A stretch of DNA of 64,000 nt from Sulfurovum sp. 16-42-52 (GTDB taxonomy: Bacteria; Campylobacterota; Campylobacteria; Campylobacterales; Sulfurovaceae), in the NCBI GenBank assembly GCA_002281755.1, contig NCHB01000002.1, positions 1-64,000 of the forward strand, given 5' to 3'. The position numbers and the translations under genes are program-made. Shown here piece by piece: positions 45,082 through 54,380 of this stretch (the stretch's first letter is position 1; every line of letters begins with the position of its first letter). The notes beneath the pieces were generated by a model. It saw only the letters and a program-made list of their open reading frames with translations, ran no database searches and was not told the origin of the DNA.

Positions 45082-45321
45082 ATGGACTTTCAAGAACTGG
45101 CGATAGAACTGGCAAATTTACGAAAAAATAAAAATATTTCACAACAGATGATGGCAGAGGCATTGCACCTTTCAAGAGCTACCATTAGCAACTTTGAAAA
45201 TGGCAGTGGCAATGATATAGGACTGAAAAAAGTTATTCAGATAGCTGACTACCTTGGTTTAGAATTTCAACTGAAAGAAAAATCACCTTTCCCTGTTTTT
45301 GAGGACATCATCAATGGCTAG
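45082..45321 (+). CDS. hipB: HipB-like antitoxin, XRE helix-turn-helix
   Basis: A 79-residue DNA-binding antitoxin that should bind and neutralise HipA and repress the operon. The HTH lies at about 20-50 (ISQQMMAEALHLSRATISNF), followed by a short C-terminal strand (LGLEFQLKEKS) as in HipB. Its stop lies inside the start of hipA (ATGGCTAG), so the pair is translationally coupled, the normal antitoxin-first order. Confidence 0.9.
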   Translation: MDFQELAIELANLRKNKNISQQMMAEALHLSRATISNFENGSGNDIGLKKVIQIADYLGLEFQLKEKSPFPVFEDIING

Positions 45322-46465
45322 TCTAAAGGTCATAGTAGATGAAAATCCTGCAGGTAGGCTCATAAACGAGAATGATGAATTTATATTTTCCTATGACACA
45401 GAGAGTCAAGATAAATTTGTATCCTTAACGATGCCTGTGAGACAAAAACCCTATGTGCACAAAAAACTACACCCTCTGTTTGAGATGCACTTGCCTGAGG
45501 GGTATTTGCTTTCAATCATCAAAAAACATTTTGCAAAAATAACTAAAATGGATGATTTTGGACTTTTGAAAGTAATGGCTCCTTCCATCCATGGACGCGT
45601 TACTTATGAAAATAAAAAACAAACCATCAAAGACAACTTAAGCCTCGATGAACTCATAAAACCCAAAAATGAACATCTATTTGATGAGTTGGTTAGCAGA
45701 TTTGCTTTGCATTCGGCATTGAGTGGTGTTCAGCCAAAGGTGCTTGCGGTCGTAGAAGACAAAGCGACATTAAAATGTGAAGAGTATATCGTCAAGTCTT
45801 GGGGAGACGAGTATAAAGAGCTTGCCATCAATGAGTATTATTGTATGCAAATAGTCCGTTTGTCTGGCGTGGTTGTACCAGAGTTTTACATCTCTGATGA
45901 TGAAAAGCTTTTAATTATGAAGCGGTTTGATAAACAAGAAGACAAACACTTGGGTTTTGAAGATATGTGTGTACTGATGGGAAAACAAAGAGAGGACAAA
46001 TACGAAGGCTCTTATGAGCAAATAGCTAAAGTGATCCAAACATTTGTATCACCAAACCATAAAAAAAGCTCCATGCTGCACTTTTTCAAGATGATTTACA
46101 TAAGCTATAAGCTTGAAAATGGTGATGCACACTTAAAAAACTTTGGTCTGCTTTATGATGGGGTGGATAACATCAGATTAGCACCTGCTTATGATGTGGT
46201 TTGCACGACTGTTTACATCAAAAATGACATCCCTGCCCTACTACTGCTTGGGAGTAAAAAATGGTGGGATGAAAAGTATCTCATAAAGTTCGGGATGCAG
46301 AGTTGTGGTTTGAGTAAAAAAGAGGTAGATGATGCTTTAAAAGAGTGTAAAAGCGCTTTTGAAACTGTAGAAAAACAGATAAGCCAAAGACTAGAAGTTG
46401 AAAACAATGAAGACAAAGTGAAAGTGCTTGAGAGGCTGAAGAAACATTGTAATATTGTATCATAA
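45314..46465 (+). CDS. hipA: HipA-like serine/threonine kinase toxin
   Basis: 383 residues from ATG 45314, which overlaps hipB by 8 bp. The N-terminal HipA_N part (about 1-100) is fused to the kinase, so this is the classical two-gene form, not a three-gene HipBST. The kinase has SGVQPKVLAV (glycine-rich, autophosphorylation-loop region, about 140), ATP-binding region EYIVKSW, the catalytic NGDAHLKNFGLL (about 275), and LAPAYDVV as the DFG-equivalent. All key residues look intact. HipA of E. coli phosphorylates glutamyl-tRNA synthetase; the target here is unknown. It is part of the accessory insert. Confidence 0.92.
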   Translation: MASLKVIVDENPAGRLINENDEFIFSYDTESQDKFVSLTMPVRQKPYVHKKLHPLFEMHLPEGYLLSIIKKHFAKITKMDDFGLLKVMAPSIHGRVTYENKKQTIKDNLSLDELIKPKNEHLFDELVSRFALHSALSGVQPKVLAVVEDKATLKCEEYIVKSWGDEYKELAINEYYCMQIVRLSGVVVPEFYISDDEKLLIMKRFDKQEDKHLGFEDMCVLMGKQREDKYEGSYEQIAKVIQTFVSPNHKKSSMLHFFKMIYISYKLENGDAHLKNFGLLYDGVDNIRLAPAYDVVCTTVYIKNDIPALLLLGSKKWWDEKYLIKFGMQSCGLSKKEVDDALKECKSAFETVEKQISQRLEVENNEDKVKVLERLKKHCNIVS

Positions 46466-46834: not shown

Positions 46835-46884
46835 TTTTTTACCCAAGAGCCACTTGTTTAGCCATGTTTGCGTATGAGTCCCAC
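46835..46884. repeat. Right copy of the dus-mrr junction repeat
   Basis: 47 of 50 bases match 44921-44970. It holds a copy of the dus 3' end (FFTQEPLV plus TAG at 46859-46861) overlapping the end of the intact mrr-like gene. The two copies are 1,914 bp apart and bracket the hipBA/RHS insert. Confidence 0.85.
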
Positions 46885-47364
46885 GAGGCTTTCACCGTCA
46901 ATCAGCGTGATTTTTTTTTCGTTGATGAAGCTGTAACACTCTTTGGTGAAGCGGCTGGTGGTTATGATATAGACTTCATCGGCGTCGTGTTCAAACATCA
47001 GTCCGTACATCTCTCTGATGACCTTGATGGTTACCAGTGCATCATCATAGCGTTTACACTGTACGATAGCGGAGCGTTTTTTTTGCATCAAAGCGTTTTT
47101 GTGCATCCAAATATCTACCCCGCCATCTGCACCTTTTTTGTCATTGCCCAACACTTCCCACCCCATGTTTGCAAAGAGTTCCATACATAGGCGCTCAAAT
47201 TCATCCCAACTGAGACGTTTTAGTTTTTTCAGTGTCCTGTTTTTTTTCAGCAGGCTTTTTGTTTTGAACTGCTGCCACAGCATGATCGCTTTATAGGCAA
47301 ACAGTAGAAAAAAGAGTATCAACAGAGCCAGTGACTCAAGCTGTAGGTTTGTAAAGTATGTCAT
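46858..47364 (-). CDS. Membrane-anchored Mrr-like restriction endonuclease
   Basis: 168 residues. One N-terminal helix (LALLILFFLLFAYKAIMLW) is followed by a basic linker and an Mrr_cat-type PD-(D/E)xK nuclease domain: WDEFERLCMELFANMGWEV, GADGGVDIWM (Asp), IVQCKRY (QxK), and a C-terminal ADEVYIITTSRFT strand. It probably cleaves DNA, perhaps modified DNA as Mrr does, but some homologs serve DNA maintenance. An A9 tract lies near codon 150. Its last codons are duplicated beside dus. Confidence 0.85.
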   Translation of the reverse strand: MTYFTNLQLESLALLILFFLLFAYKAIMLWQQFKTKSLLKKNRTLKKLKRLSWDEFERLCMELFANMGWEVLGNDKKGADGGVDIWMHKNALMQKKRSAIVQCKRYDDALVTIKVIREMYGLMFEHDADEVYIITTSRFTKECYSFINEKKITLIDGESLVGLIRKHG

Positions 47365-47495: not shown

Positions 47496-50330
47496 ATGGC
47501 AGAGAGTACTAAAGAGATGATTCATGTGTATGGCGCAAGAGAAAACAATCTAAAAAATATCGATATCAGTATCCCTAAGAACAAATTGGTTGTGGTGACA
47601 GGAATATCCGGTTCAGGTAAATCAACCTTGGCATTTTCTACCTTGTATGCAGAAGGGCAGAGACGCTACATCGAGTCTTTGTCGAGTTATGCCAGACAGT
47701 TTTTGGGACGTGTGGGAAAACCTGATGTCGATAAGATAGAGGGGCTTACCCCTGCGATTGCGATCGATCAGAAAACGACTTCAAAAAATCCGCGTTCAAC
47801 AGTTGGTACGATTACAGAGATTTATGACTATCTTAGACTGCTGTTTGCACGTGTGGGTGAGCAGCATTGTCATGAGTGCGGCAAGGCTATCTCTTCTATG
47901 TCGGCTTCAGACATCATCGAAGAGGTGCTTAAATTGCCCGAGGGTTCTAAGCTTGTCATCATGGCACCTTTGGTCAATGAAAAAAAAGGAAGTTTTGCTG
48001 ATATGTTGGAGTCTTTACGTCACAAAGGCTATGTGCGCGCGATGATAGACGGGGTGATGGTACGTCTGGATGAAGAGATAGAGCTTAGTAAGACCAAAAA
48101 ACACAGCATCAAAGTCGTCATCGATAGGGTGGTAGTCAAAGAGGAGAGCCGTGACCGTATCGGACAGGATGTGGAAAAGGCACTCAAAGAGAGCTATGGC
48201 GAACTGGAGATAGAAGTTTCAAACTACGAAGAAGTCGGGCTTGAGCAGCAACATTTTCACTACTCGGAACACTTGGCGTGTTTTGACTGCAAGATAAGTT
48301 TTGAGCCCTTAGAACCGGTGAGTTTTTCTTTCAACTCGCCTAAGGGTGCCTGTCCTGTGTGTGATGGACTGGGTATTCGGTATGCGATAGACCTCAAAAA
48401 AGTGATAGACTCCGAGCTTTCCATTGACAAAGGGGCAGTGAAAATCATGTATGGCTTCAACAAGGGCTACTATACGAAGTTTCTCACTGCTTTTTGTGAG
48501 CAAAACGATATCAGTATCCACACCCCTTACGGTGAACTTGAAACGCATCAGCAAAAAGCAATACTCTACGGAAATAACACATCAGTTGATTTTTTATGGA
48601 AACGTCACAAGCTCAAACGTGAGTGGCCTGGTGTGGTAAAATTTGCGCATGATATGTTCAATGAAGAGAAAGACCTTGCTGAGTATATGACAGAAAAAGT
48701 CTGTGATAAGTGTAATGGACACAGACTCAAACCACAATCTTTGGCTGTTAAAATCGCCGGGTTGAATATCGCTACGATTATCGATATGCCCATCGAAAAA
48801 TCCTACGCCTATTTTTCAGATGCAGAGAGTTTTTCTCACTTAAGCGAACAGCAAAAGATGATAGCAGCATCCATACTCAAAGAGTTGGATGAGCGGCTCT
48901 ATTTTCTCTATGATGTAGGGCTGGGGTATCTTACTTTGAGTCGTGATGCACGAAGTATTTCAGGTGGTGAAGCCCAGCGTATCCGTATCGCGTCTCAGAT
49001 AGGCTCCGGACTTACGGGGGTGATGTATGTACTTGATGAGCCCAGTATCGGACTACATGAGCGCGATACCATGAAGCTTATACGCACACTCAATTCGCTT
49101 AGGGACAAAGGAAACTCGGTCATCGTGGTAGAACATGACAAAGAGACGATTTTGGCTGCAGACTACATCATCGACATCGGACCTGGGGCAGGGGCATTTG
49201 GGGGAGAGGTCGTATTTGCAGGAGATGCGCAAAAGCTTGCCAAAACAAAAACGTTGACAGCATCATACTTGTATGGTAAAAAAGAGATAGCCTATACACA
49301 TGACAAGCCTCAAAAAGAGTGGATAGAGATCAAGAATGTCACACTCAATAACATTGAAAATCTTGATGTCAAAATCCCTTTGCGAAACTTTGTCTGCATC
49401 ACAGGTGTCAGCGGTTCAGGTAAATCTTCACTCATCCTTCAAACCCTTCTTCCTGTAGCAAGAGAGCTGCTCAACCATGCCAGAAAGGTTACTAAGATAG
49501 ACGGGGTAGAGATCACTGGACTTGAAAAACTCGATAAAGTCATCTACCTTGACCAAAGCCCCATCGGACGTACGCCACGCTCGAACCCTGCTACCTACAC
49601 CGGTATTATGGATGAGATACGTAAACTTTTTGCGATGACAAAAGAGGCAGAGCTGCGCGGCTACAAAATAGGGCGTTTTTCCTTCAATGTCAAAGGCGGA
49701 CGCTGCGAAAAATGTCAGGGTGACGGGCAGATCAAGATAGAGATGCACTTCTTGCCTGATGTACTGGTGAGCTGTGATGCCTGTGACGGTACACGCTACA
49801 ATGCGCAAACACGTGAAATCCTCTATAAAGGCAAATCGATCTCTGATGTACTGGATATGAGCGTAGAAGAGGCACTGAAGTTTTTTAAAGCCATCCCCGC
49901 CATTGCAGTGAAGCTTAAAACGCTCACCGATGTAGGACTGGGTTACATTACGCTTGGACAAAATGCGACGACACTTTCGGGCGGTGAGGCACAGCGTATC
50001 AAGCTGAGCAAAGAGTTGAGCCGAAAAGATACGGGTCAGACGCTGTATATCTTGGATGAACCGACCACTGGACTGCATTTTGCAGATGTGGACAGGCTTA
50101 CGGGGGTATTGCATCACTTAGTTGAGCTGGGGAATTCACTGGTTGTCATCGAACACAATCTTGATATGATTAAAAATGCGGATTATATCATCGATATGGG
50201 ACCAGAAGGGGGAAATAAAGGCGGACTCATCATCGCTGAAGGAAGTCCAGAAAAAGTTGCACAAGAGTACAAAACAACCGGTTCTTATACCGGTGAGTAT
50301 CTCGCCAAAGAGCTTAAACTGAATCTTTAG
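47496..50330 (+). CDS. uvrA: Excinuclease ABC subunit A
   Basis: Damage-recognition ATPase of nucleotide excision repair; works with UvrB and UvrC. It has 944 residues, full length. There are two ABC domains, with Walker A GISGSGKSTLAF (about 34) and GVSGSGKSSLIL (about 639), signatures ISGGEAQRIRIA and LSGGEAQRIKLS, and zinc modules CPVCDG and CEKCQGDGQI...CDACDG. It is convergent with the riboswitch-controlled gene, 5 bp apart. Confidence 0.98.
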   Translation: MAESTKEMIHVYGARENNLKNIDISIPKNKLVVVTGISGSGKSTLAFSTLYAEGQRRYIESLSSYARQFLGRVGKPDVDKIEGLTPAIAIDQKTTSKNPRSTVGTITEIYDYLRLLFARVGEQHCHECGKAISSMSASDIIEEVLKLPEGSKLVIMAPLVNEKKGSFADMLESLRHKGYVRAMIDGVMVRLDEEIELSKTKKHSIKVVIDRVVVKEESRDRIGQDVEKALKESYGELEIEVSNYEEVGLEQQHFHYSEHLACFDCKISFEPLEPVSFSFNSPKGACPVCDGLGIRYAIDLKKVIDSELSIDKGAVKIMYGFNKGYYTKFLTAFCEQNDISIHTPYGELETHQQKAILYGNNTSVDFLWKRHKLKREWPGVVKFAHDMFNEEKDLAEYMTEKVCDKCNGHRLKPQSLAVKIAGLNIATIIDMPIEKSYAYFSDAESFSHLSEQQKMIAASILKELDERLYFLYDVGLGYLTLSRDARSISGGEAQRIRIASQIGSGLTGVMYVLDEPSIGLHERDTMKLIRTLNSLRDKGNSVIVVEHDKETILAADYIIDIGPGAGAFGGEVVFAGDAQKLAKTKTLTASYLYGKKEIAYTHDKPQKEWIEIKNVTLNNIENLDVKIPLRNFVCITGVSGSGKSSLILQTLLPVARELLNHARKVTKIDGVEITGLEKLDKVIYLDQSPIGRTPRSNPATYTGIMDEIRKLFAMTKEAELRGYKIGRFSFNVKGGRCEKCQGDGQIKIEMHFLPDVLVSCDACDGTRYNAQTREILYKGKSISDVLDMSVEEALKFFKAIPAIAVKLKTLTDVGLGYITLGQNATTLSGGEAQRIKLSKELSRKDTGQTLYILDEPTTGLHFADVDRLTGVLHHLVELGNSLVVIEHNLDMIKNADYIIDMGPEGGNKGGLIIAEGSPEKVAQEYKTTGSYTGEYLAKELKLNL

Positions 50331-50335
50331 ACTTT

Positions 50336-50716
50336 TTAGGGTCTACGAAACGGCTTTTGGCTGCGGAGCAAATCCTGTTTTCCAAATCCAATTGCCATTT
50401 TTGCAATCCAAAGCAGGGCAAGGGCGGCGATAATCTCATACCCTATCGCCCATGTCAAAATAAAAAATGAATTTTTATAGACAGCAAGAAATACGTCAAT
50501 ATTTGCCTTGGATACATACAAAAACAAAAACATAAATCCTGCAATATAGGGCAGAATGGCAATATAGAGAAGTAAAAAGATAGTTTCATATCCTTCAGGA
50601 AAAAAAAGAGGTACGTCATTATAGGCTAGATTCTTTTGGGAAAATTTATAGGTTACGATAGGCTCAACTTTTGCTGCTTGATTGATTTGCGGATGAATGA
50701 TGCGTTGGGTTACCAT
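50336..50716 (-). CDS. Riboswitch-controlled two-helix membrane protein
   Basis: 126 residues from ATG 50716. A polar N-terminal 45 residues is followed by two long membrane helices (about 47-72 and 86-112; TIFLLLYIAILPYIAGFMF and SFFILTWAIGYEIIAALAL) and a basic tail (RSQKPFRRP). No known domain. ATG 50716 is chosen over GTG 50746 because the AAAGGG ribosome site is just upstream and the GTG lies inside the predicted expression-platform hairpin. The upstream GEMM-type aptamer suggests synthesis depends on a cyclic dinucleotide. It is convergent with uvrA and divergent from polA. Confidence 0.75.
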   Translation of the reverse strand: MVTQRIIHPQINQAAKVEPIVTYKFSQKNLAYNDVPLFFPEGYETIFLLLYIAILPYIAGFMFLFLYVSKANIDVFLAVYKNSFFILTWAIGYEIIAALALLWIAKMAIGFGKQDLLRSQKPFRRP

Positions 50717-50771
50717 TGCTCGCCCTTTGATTGAGGTTTTAATCACAGTACGTTGTGACTCAATTGAGCAA
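50716..50771 (-). promoter_or_regulatory. Expression platform hairpin of the GEMM riboswitch
   Basis: Three nested stems can form on the minus-strand transcript: TTGCTC (50771-50766) with GAGCAA (50721-50716), ATTGAG (50764-50759) with CTCAAT (50735-50730), and TCACA (50758-50754) with TGTGA (50747-50743). GAGCAA includes the A of the start codon, and the AAAGGG ribosome site lies between the paired arms. TTGCTC begins inside the 3' end of the aptamer, so aptamer folding and this hairpin compete. This indicates translational control. Confidence 0.65.
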
Positions 50772-50835
50772 CCCGGCGGTCTTTTGTAAGATCCGTGGCT
50801 TTCCGTCCTATCTTCACAGATAGTTTGGCTTTTTC
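50766..50835 (-). ncRNA. c-di-GMP-I (GEMM) class riboswitch aptamer
   Basis: The minus-strand transcript reads AGCCAAAC, then CTATCT-GTGA-AGATAG (a 6-bp stem capped by a GNRA loop), then GGACGGAAAGCCACGG, then a P3-like stem GG(A)TCTT-ACAA-AAGACC, and GCCGGGTTGC. This order (AAAC, GNRA hairpin, GACGnAAAGCC, second hairpin, GCcGGGuuGC) is the GEMM-I pattern. Family members bind c-di-GMP, with a subgroup preferring cGAMP; ligand choice cannot be settled by eye. It lies just upstream of the membrane protein at 50336-50716. Confidence 0.82.
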
Positions 50836-50933
50836 TTGTTTATATGAAATGATAACAAAAAAATGTCATATTTTTATAAGAAAATTTGATATTTTGAAAA
50901 ATACCTTTGTGGAACTTCTAACACTTAATAGGC

Positions 50934-50954: not shown

Positions 50955-53672
50955 TTGTCTTTGAAAACCATCACGATTATTGATACGTTCGGCTTCTTCT
51001 TTCGCTCTTATTTTGCACTTCCTCCTTTACGCAACAGTGAGGGATTTCCAACAGGACTACTTACAGGTTTTGTCAACCTTGTGGACTCTTTACACCGTGA
51101 CCACAGTACGGACTATCTGGTGTTTGCCCTTGATGCCAAAGGTAAAACATTCCGCAGTGATTTGTATGATGCCTATAAAGCACACAGAGAAGCACCACCT
51201 GAAGATCTCATCAAACAACTTCCCATTGCCATAGAATGGATAGAGCAAATGGGTTTTGCCAATCTTTCACGGGAAGGCTTTGAAGCTGATGATATCATCG
51301 CAACGGTGACGAAGTTTGCCAAAGAACAAGGCATCAAAGTGCGCATTGTCTCACATGACAAAGATCTCTATCAGCTCATCGATGACGGAGTGGTGGTGAT
51401 GTATGACTCAGTCAAGCGAAAAGAGGTCGATGAAGATGCCTGTGTCGAGAAGTTTGGGGTGAGTCCGAAGGATTTTATCAACTTTCAGGCACTTTTGGGT
51501 GACAGTTCAGACAATGTACCCGGTGTGAAAGGCATCGGACAAAAAGGTGCAAGCGCGCTCATCAACAAGTACCATACCCTTGAAGCCATCTATGCCGATA
51601 TCGAAAATGCAGGCACGCCACGCATCCAGAAACTTCTGCTTGAGGGAAAAGAAAATGCGTTTTTGTCGCGCGAACTGGTTACCATGAGTGAAGCCGTGTA
51701 TGAGGATTTGGACATCGAGAGTTATGTGTTTGAGGACAAAAATTATTTGAGTTGTTTGAGCGAGGAGTTTGAACGCTTTGAGATGAAACAGGCACTCAAA
51801 AAAGCACAGGCAACACAGGAAGAAAGAAGTGCCCAAAACACGCCTAAGCCTCAAACAGAGACAGCAAAAGTGCCGACACAAAACCTGCAGTTTGAAGCGA
51901 TTACTCTCGATACCAAAGCAAAACTCTATGCCGTCATCGATGCGCTACCTGCGGATGCCTTGGTCGCTTTTGACACGGAAACCACGGGATTAGATACCAA
52001 AGTAGCCAAAATCGTCGGTTTTAGTTTTTGTGTTGATGCACAAAAAGCGTATTATGTGCCCATTGGGCATAGTTATCTGGGTGTGGAGGCACAAGTAGAA
52101 CTGCAAGATGCACTGGCGGGACTTCAAAAACTGCTCACACGAAAAATCATCGGGCAAAATCTCAAATTTGATTTTTCTTTGCTGCTCAATCAATATGGAT
52201 TTGAGGCACTCACACCCTTTGCCGATACGATGATCATGGCATGGCTTTTAGATCCGGGTACTAAAGTGGGGCTCGATACGCTGGCAAAAGTGTTCTTCAA
52301 GTATGAGATGAAAGCGTTCAAAGAGACAGTCAAGCAGGGAGAAGACTTCTCAACCGTCGCCATTGAGGATGCAACTTTTTATGCGGCTGAAGATGCATGG
52401 ATGACATTTTTACTCTATGGGGCAATCAAAAAAAAGATGGAGCTTGGCTCTTTGAGCCATCTTCTTAAAGAGGCGCAAACGGTTGAGTACCCGTTTATCT
52501 CTGTACTCATGCGTATGGAGCGTTTGGGCATCAAAGTTGACCCTAAAAAGTTTGAAGCTTTACAAAAAACCCTCAGTCAAGATCTTGCCACGCTAACGGG
52601 TGAGATTTATGCACTCAGCGGGTCTGAGTTTAATATCAAATCTACCCAGCAGTTAGGTGCAGTGTTGTTTGGACAGTTGGGACTCAAAGGCGGCAAAAAA
52701 ACAAAAACAGGCTACAGCACCAATGAAGCCGTACTGGATTCCCTCTTAGGTGAGCATCCTGTCATCGAGAAAATACTCCAGTACCGTGAGTACCAAAAGA
52801 TACTCTCCACTTATGTTGAACCACTTCTCAAACTCTCTTTAGCCGATGCCCACTCTCGCATCTATACCTCTTTTGTACAGACAGGTACTGCCACGGGGCG
52901 TTTAAGCTCACGCGATCCGAACCTGCAAAACATTCCCGTGCGTTCAGCATTGGGGCGTTCGGTACGAGAAGCTTTTGTTGCCAAAGAGGGCTATAAACTG
53001 GTGAGCATCGACTACTCGCAGATAGAGTTGCGTCTGTTGGCACATTTTAGTAAAGATGCTGCTCTGCTTGAAGCGTTCAATCAGGGTGTGGATATCCACT
53101 TAGCGACCGCTGTGAAGCTTTTTGGAGAGGAGCAAGCCCCCGCAAAACGAAGTTACGCCAAGTCGGTTAACTTTGGTTTGCTGTACGGCATGGGCCCTAA
53201 AAAGCTCTCTGATGAACTGAGCATCAGCACCACCGAAGCCAAAGAGATTATCACCAACTATTTTGCCTCTTTTCCAACGGTGAAGAACTTCTTAGAAGGC
53301 ATACAAGAGCGTGTCAAGATAGACGGCTATGTAGAAACACTGCTGGGACGCAGAAGGCTCTTTGACTACGAGAGTGCCAATGCGATGATGAAAGCATCCT
53401 TCATGCGCGAATCAGTCAACACCGTCTTCCAAGGCAGCGCCGCTGATCTCATCAAACTCTCCATGATACACATCGACACGATGATACAAGAAGAGGGTTT
53501 GGATGCTTTCATGCTCCTACAAATCCACGATGAACTTATCTTTGAAATCAAAGAAGAAAAGGTGGACGAGATAAGCAAACGCTTTGTCCATGTGATGGAA
53601 AACATATTTGAACTGGGTGTGCCTTTGGAGTGCTCGGTGAGTGTTGGTGAGAGTTGGGGGGAGTTGAAGTAG
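50955..53672 (+). CDS. polA: DNA polymerase I
   Basis: Repair and Okazaki-fragment polymerase, 905 residues. Three domains are present: 5' nuclease (IIDTFGFFFRSYFALPP; SHDKDLYQL; LLGDSSDNVPGVKGIG), 3'-5' exonuclease with apparently intact acidic residues (VAFDTETTGLD; FDFSLL), and polymerase with motif A DYSQIELRLLAHFS, the O-helix RSYAKSVNFGLLYG and motif C LQIHDELIFE. It starts with TTG, either at 50955 or 50961 (TAGG upstream fits 50961); there is no ATG close by. Confidence 0.96.
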   Translation: MSLKTITIIDTFGFFFRSYFALPPLRNSEGFPTGLLTGFVNLVDSLHRDHSTDYLVFALDAKGKTFRSDLYDAYKAHREAPPEDLIKQLPIAIEWIEQMGFANLSREGFEADDIIATVTKFAKEQGIKVRIVSHDKDLYQLIDDGVVVMYDSVKRKEVDEDACVEKFGVSPKDFINFQALLGDSSDNVPGVKGIGQKGASALINKYHTLEAIYADIENAGTPRIQKLLLEGKENAFLSRELVTMSEAVYEDLDIESYVFEDKNYLSCLSEEFERFEMKQALKKAQATQEERSAQNTPKPQTETAKVPTQNLQFEAITLDTKAKLYAVIDALPADALVAFDTETTGLDTKVAKIVGFSFCVDAQKAYYVPIGHSYLGVEAQVELQDALAGLQKLLTRKIIGQNLKFDFSLLLNQYGFEALTPFADTMIMAWLLDPGTKVGLDTLAKVFFKYEMKAFKETVKQGEDFSTVAIEDATFYAAEDAWMTFLLYGAIKKKMELGSLSHLLKEAQTVEYPFISVLMRMERLGIKVDPKKFEALQKTLSQDLATLTGEIYALSGSEFNIKSTQQLGAVLFGQLGLKGGKKTKTGYSTNEAVLDSLLGEHPVIEKILQYREYQKILSTYVEPLLKLSLADAHSRIYTSFVQTGTATGRLSSRDPNLQNIPVRSALGRSVREAFVAKEGYKLVSIDYSQIELRLLAHFSKDAALLEAFNQGVDIHLATAVKLFGEEQAPAKRSYAKSVNFGLLYGMGPKKLSDELSISTTEAKEIITNYFASFPTVKNFLEGIQERVKIDGYVETLLGRRRLFDYESANAMMKASFMRESVNTVFQGSAADLIKLSMIHIDTMIQEEGLDAFMLLQIHDELIFEIKEEKVDEISKRFVHVMENIFELGVPLECSVSVGESWGELK

Positions 53673-54380
53673 ATGGACACAATGAAACTAAACGAAAACT
53701 TTATAAAACTCCCACGAGGAAGTTTTCTTATGGGTAGTGAAGATACCTCGGCAAAAGACAATGAAAAGCCTGTGCATCTTGTCAAGATAGACTATGACAT
53801 CGCGATGTGTAAGTACCCTGTGAGCGTTGAGGAGTATATGCTTTTTGCTCAGGCGACAGGGGTGGAAGTGCCACAGGAGAGACATGAGCATTTGGGTGTT
53901 GATGTGCCAGTGCGTCGTGTCCGTTGGAGTGATGCAAAAGCGTACTGCGCATGGAAAACACAAAGAGAAGGTGTGACGTACCGTCTGCCAAGTGAAGCAG
54001 AGTGGGAGTATGCATGCCGTGCAGGCAGTCAGGAGACATACTGTTTTGGAAGTGATGATGCGCTGTTGGGCGAGTATGCATGGTATGGTGAAAATGCGCA
54101 AGGTGTTACGCATGACGTGGGGTTAAAAAAACCAAATGCTTGGGGATTGTTCGATATGCATGGAAACGTATGGGAGTGGTGCAGCGACCGCTATGCACCC
54201 AACTATACGGGTACGCCATGTGACGGTTCAGCCTTTAAAGAAGAAAGCGACAAAGGCAGAGTATTGCGTGGCGGTTCGTATAATGCCGGTGCAGATAAAT
54301 GCTCCTGTACATCGCGGATAAACTTACTTGCTGCGGGTAAAAATTATTTCATAGGTTTTCGGGTACTTATAGCGCTTTAA
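53673..54380 (+). CDS. FGE-sulfatase / SUMF1 domain protein
   Basis: 235 residues forming one formylglycine-generating-enzyme-like domain: RGSFLMGSEDTSAKDNEKP near the start, RLPSEAEWEYACRAG in the middle, GLFDMHGNVWEWCSDRY, and GRVLRGGSYNAGADKCSCTSR near the end. In true FGE two cysteines act with copper; here KCSCTSR supplies a candidate pair, but many family members have other roles (for example EgtB-like or regulatory). No signal peptide and no sulfatase nearby. Its ATG directly follows the polA stop, so it is probably co-transcribed. Confidence 0.85.
   Translation: MDTMKLNENFIKLPRGSFLMGSEDTSAKDNEKPVHLVKIDYDIAMCKYPVSVEEYMLFAQATGVEVPQERHEHLGVDVPVRRVRWSDAKAYCAWKTQREGVTYRLPSEAEWEYACRAGSQETYCFGSDDALLGEYAWYGENAQGVTHDVGLKKPNAWGLFDMHGNVWEWCSDRYAPNYTGTPCDGSAFKEESDKGRVLRGGSYNAGADKCSCTSRINLLAAGKNYFIGFRVLIAL

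Follow-up and report, generated by a model that had tools for sequence, protein, structure and literature searches.

Riboswitches of the c-di-GMP-I class (GEMM-I, Rfam RF01051) contact their ligand through the bases G20, A47 and C92 (PMC4744006, PMC3764141), and surface proteins, cell-wall hydrolases and signalling proteins are the usual targets of the c-di-GMP output of the GEMM class (PMC7266159). The variant of GEMM-I that recognizes 3',3'-cGAMP carries an adenine at position 20 (G20A; PMC7288161). In the cGAMP ON switch of pilM, the expression platform, a terminator, sequesters the cytosine equivalent to C92 (PMC9262584).

Our analysis of a Sulfurovum locus indicates that a c-di-GMP-I riboswitch at the head of the transcript for a small membrane protein probably acts as a translational ON switch.

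Organization of the locus

The window, as we call the whole stretch of 64,000 nucleotides analysed here, belongs to a Sulfurovum genome of 1.99 Mb. On its minus strand, the aptamer (50763-50838) is followed by a 46-nt spacer and by a 126-codon gene for a protein with two transmembrane helices (50336-50716; ATG at 50716-50714, end at 50336). As an earlier, sequence-only reading had described, the gene lies between uvrA (47496-50330, plus strand), which is convergent with it and whose end falls 6 bases beyond the gene, and polA (50955-53672, plus strand), located upstream of the riboswitch and divergent from it. The sequence elements are all on the strand and at the positions given by that reading, including the GACGGAAAGCC core and GCCGGGTTGC; only its overall extent fell short, closing at 50835 and omitting three bases of an aptamer that reaches 50838. 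Adjoining the aptamer is a likely promoter (TGACAT, 17 nt, ATATAA; 50839-50875, minus strand), a tentative call because a consensus scan missed it.

Near uvrA, the window also carries a HipA-like kinase gene (HipA_C, Couple_hipA; 45299-46465, plus strand) and a gene for a protein with an Mrr-type restriction-endonuclease domain (46858-47364, minus strand), and a formylglycine-generating-enzyme-like gene (FGE-sulfatase; 53673-54380, plus strand) sits immediately 3' of polA. A search for plasmid carriage gave no match.

The aptamer and its ligand pocket

The GEMM-class assignment of the earlier reading holds under the RF01051 check that this reading had proposed, with the segment 50838-50763 (minus strand) reaching 62.4 bits against the model (cut-off 35). 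Our own model R1 gives it 86.2 bits, a score to be read knowing that the site is itself among the 30 seed rows of R1. Helix P2 forms in each of the 30 aligned rows and carries compensatory changes, and the helices of the aptamer covary, with changes on both sides in 12 of 20 pairs, a count equalled in none of 500 shuffles. The window aptamer is genuine, far above chance. P1 is paired in 75% of the cells of the aligned set; in the window, where the class has a G14-C93 pair beside the ligand, its sole pair is a G14-U93 wobble, the next pair being an A-C mismatch.

The pocket positions were assigned in Vc2 numbering (PMC3764141, PMC4744006). G20 (50829, aligned at model position 10), A47 (50802, from the RF03167 alignment), A48, A49 and C92 (50768, from the model and 30-row alignments) are all intact in the window, and the five are invariant across the 30 rows. 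The GNRA loop of P2 and the C44-G83 interhelical pair are present, and C34 and G62 of the aptamer (interhelical pair) are likewise invariant. For a wider view, we collected 173 distinct Sulfurovum aptamers, 165 of which could be parsed. All 165 carry G20 and AAA at positions 47-49, and position 92 is a T in a few of the collected aptamers. By its ligand-contact bases, then, the aptamer reads as an ordinary member of the c-di-GMP-I class. We rejected cGAMP as the ligand on account of G20 in the window and in all the parsed relatives, and it is because position 20 is a guanine that we infer c-di-GMP as the favoured ligand.

Two features had been singled out as departures from the class, and neither is one. 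The GUGA loop (50817-50814, minus strand) is an ordinary GNRA loop. The GACGG joining strand contains the 3' side (50803-50804) of the P2 pairs C21-G46 and C22-G45, whose 5' side is the CC at 50827-50828, and helix 2 covaries at these positions. GACGG is thus one side of a compensated pair, the G21-C46 of Vc2 being flipped to C21-G46 in 163 of the 165 parsed Sulfurovum aptamers. The flipped pair also occurs in seven aptamers of other Campylobacterota genomes, and from these alignments the orientation is general in the phylum.

Predicted pairing between the aptamer and the start site

We then consider how such an aptamer could control the gene. The strand TTGCTC (50766-50771, minus strand), which in the RNA extends from the base of P3 through C92, the position that pairs with the ligand, into the P1 strand, can pair in the predicted fold with GAGCAA (50716-50721), a segment that includes the A of the AUG. 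The aptamer and the proposed hairpin do have bases in common, as previously claimed, C92 among them. Inside this outer stem lie the middle arm, ATTGAG (50764-50759) with CTCAAT (50735-50730), an inner spacer hairpin TCACA-ACGTAC-TGTGA (50743-50758; arms at 50758-50754 and 50747-50743), and the ribosome-binding site AAAGGG (50723-50728), 6 nt ahead of the ATG. The overlapping strand GGGUUGCU is predicted to pair even better around codons 2-4, where GGTAACCC (50706-50714) is the stronger alternative partner of the aptamer strand GGGTTGCT (duplex of -12.7 kcal/mol). No intrinsic terminator was found between the aptamer and the start codon, and a transcription terminator in the leader was dropped as a candidate for that reason.

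The arms of the competing hairpin exist as read, and the hairpin is only mildly better than shuffled sequences: its -13.6 kcal/mol compares with an average of -9.25 kcal/mol over 200 shuffles (z -1.9), 10 of which do as well. In the sister species (locus L035), the outer arms are identical to those of the window and the closing A-U of the inner stem has become C-G, a compensatory change, while the middle arm is broken, reading ATTTAG. Exact arms are missing from most relatives. In many of these, that aptamer strand can still base-pair near the start codon of the gene through other letters, such as TTACTC/GAGTAA in L037 or GGTTGCTC/GAGTGACC in L051. The data weakly support the competing hairpin as the putative platform.

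Pairing of the aptamer tail was compared with dinucleotide shuffles of the spacer, giving marginal values for the window (p 0.058) and for the membrane-protein family combined (0.04-0.06). At 83 other sites, pairing was on average absent (median p 0.59). Across the regulon, cognate aptamer strands pair with their start regions better than swapped ones (p 0.027 over all sites; p 0.003 when each cluster contributes a single gene; p 0.07 for the membrane-protein family alone). With the aptamer tail occupied, the predicted openness of the start region rises from 0.44 to 0.57.

These features suggest a mechanism in which, at low c-di-GMP, the 3' strand UUGCUC of the aptamer would pair with GAGCAA or with codons 2-4, hindering ribosomes. 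When c-di-GMP is bound, C92 would pair with the ligand and the UU would close P3, freeing the start site and turning on translation of the membrane protein. As C92 lies inside the start-pairing strand, the bound and blocked states would be mutually exclusive, and c-di-GMP should therefore turn translation on. We regard both the translational mechanism and the ON direction as likely.

A membrane-protein family conserved between polA and uvrA

Homologs of the 126-residue protein are found in 81 of 150 Sulfurovaceae genomes, with Sulfurovum sp. S06.Bin221 as the nearest named relative by protein (83% identity). The position between polA and uvrA, with unchanged orientation, is shared by about 30 Sulfurovum species, some of which have the gene duplicated in tandem. 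The proteins share a layout in which a variable N-terminus and an FFPEGxEKxF motif lead into two membrane helices, the first with LPYIAGLLFLFFY and the second with WAIGYE, separated by a short helix. An AlphaFold model, built on a shallow alignment of 16 rows drawn from the window and related-locus proteins, places helices at residues 44-68, 73-82 and 85-119, with pLDDT of about 83-94 per block over residues 41-110.

Pfam searches with the window protein and 36 relatives gave no E-value better than 0.07; nothing matched in NCBIfam, in PHROGs or in a sequence-profile search of the PDB; and Foldseek of the model against the PDB returned one meaningless match (E 7.5). With profile and structure searches empty, membership of a known family was rejected, and the earlier description of a two-helix protein outside any recognised family stands. 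The protein belongs to an undescribed family that is syntenic in Sulfurovum.

An intact aptamer directly precedes the orthologous gene in 12 species, including that of the window, and in most of them the order polA-gene-uvrA is visible; it is lacking from the majority of the Sulfurovum orthologs that we looked at. Decay can be seen in L057 (1954-1998), where an internal deletion has removed J2/3 and most of P3, and in L062 (2487-2561), where a 30-bit aptamer remnant lies before the upstream paralog. Species with the aptamer are scattered over the uvrA tree, many forks of which have poor support. This distribution fits an old riboswitch that would have been lost several times, gains being also possible. 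The sequence-only reading had named relatives that keep the protein without the paired arms as evidence against its proposal: the exact hairpin does fail beyond the sister species, whereas the link between aptamer and gene recurs in the 12 species.

A second riboswitch of the same genome (contig C30; L001:1501-2055) precedes a 134-residue two-helix protein with a similar P...G...W.IG pattern. Comparison of both proteins with hhalign gave E 4.7e-4 and a probability of 33%. Given this low probability, we dropped it as a proven homolog and regard a distant cousinship as suggestive.

A c-di-GMP-I riboswitch regulon in Sulfurovum

A search with RF01051 found c-di-GMP-I sites in 38 of 41 Sulfurovum genomes, and in only 15 of 200 Campylobacterota genomes sampled across the phylum, including the genome that holds the window. 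Matches to RF03167 number 0-21 per Sulfurovum genome (mean 6.8, 78 genomes). Riboswitches of this class are thus greatly expanded in Sulfurovum compared with the rest of Campylobacterota, and often occur in tandem. In the literature searched, we found no report of such riboswitches in Sulfurovum.

The genome of the window has four sites, preceding the 126-residue protein gene, the two-helix protein of L001, a PAS protein (L003) and an ABC transporter (L004). Seven GGDEF and five EAL domains encoded in it pass the cut-off, and this host therefore probably makes and degrades c-di-GMP. Across the genus, the downstream genes are of the kinds that c-di-GMP usually controls (PAS sensors, NlpC/P60-LysM, CAP, cadherin/CshA-like adhesins, the HD domain HD_5, kinases, response regulators, CZB). 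From this company of surface, adhesion, cell-wall and signalling proteins, our guess is that the 126-residue protein is a membrane component of the sessile, attached lifestyle. The broader reading, in which an old Sulfurovum gene settled between polA and uvrA, perhaps with a distant cousin at L001, represents a new family of c-di-GMP-controlled membrane effectors for surface attachment or envelope remodelling, is a possibility that we put forward with considerable doubt.

Upstream of 25 of 171 Sulfurovum riboswitches we observed a tandem direct repeat, TTGACATTTTT(T)TTGACATTTTT, its copies about one helical turn apart (0.2 expected from base shuffles), which adjoins a TATACT/TATAAT box (for example in L016, L012, L032 and L049). 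It stands before the two response-regulator genes that follow such riboswitches (L010, L016) and before four of the five HD-domain genes, and looks like a response-regulator site. The window holds, at 50839-50875 (minus strand), a partial copy of the TGACATTTTTT direct repeat seen ahead of other Sulfurovum riboswitches.

Discussion

How the aptamer is labelled depends on the model used. Against c-di-GMP-I-GGC (RF03167) it scores 60.0 bits for a cut-off of 59 (E 1.2e-11 over the window), and Rfam clan competition assigns it to this family. The GEMM-I variants were reportedly named by Weinberg in 2017, and we take the GGC of the name to stand for G20/G47/C92; the label then fits the window poorly, which carries A47 where the RF03167 consensus has G. 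A true GGC variant with a different ligand, a reading favoured by that score and by the many Sulfurovum sites over the RF03167 cut-off (up to 73.9), is nonetheless quite improbable, as G47 occurs in none of the 165 parsed Sulfurovum aptamers, RF01051 scores the window equally or higher, and c-di-GMP is consistent with the regulon and with the GGDEF/EAL enzymes. The GGC label is probably a mislabel here; the RF03167 threshold appears to tag A47 aptamers as GGC, and screens for new ligands could be led astray by this. Even less probable is that the window holds a decayed, functionless aptamer: against its weak P1 and the decay at the same locus in L057 and L062 stand intact pocket bases, intact P2 and P3, a normal score, and a sister species that keeps the aptamer and the outer and inner stems with a single compensatory change in the latter.

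The same aptamer and ligand could also act with the opposite sign or through another platform, such as repression, mRNA decay or Rho. We consider this unlikely, yet it is the most serious of the alternatives: the statistics of the start-site hairpin are weak, the predicted change in openness is small, and the class serves both ON and OFF switches (PMC9262584). What speaks for the translational ON switch instead is the position of C92 within the start-pairing strand, which would make the two states exclusive, together with the excess of cognate over swapped pairing across gene clusters.

The finding connects c-di-GMP signalling in Sulfurovum with a family of membrane proteins that is undescribed and conserved in synteny. 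Given the unusually large set of riboswitches in the genus, roles for many surface proteins still without a name become testable through the regulon.

Compared with described systems, the window riboswitch shares with c-di-GMP-I (RF01051) the fold, the GNRA loop, the interhelical C-G pair, the G20/A47/C92 pocket and the type of gene regulated, and differs from it in the orientation of C21-G46 relative to Vc2, in its weak P1 and in its undescribed target. It resembles c-di-GMP-I-GGC in a score one bit above the cut-off, and departs from it at position 47. With the Geobacter pilM riboswitch (PMC9262584) it would have in common a platform that sequesters the ligand-pairing C, exclusive states and ON logic, all predicted for the window; pilM, on the other hand, is transcriptional and binds cGAMP, whereas the window leader has G20 and lacks a terminator. 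The class is ordinary and the case is real: a c-di-GMP-I riboswitch with a canonical pocket in front of an undescribed, syntenic family of membrane proteins.
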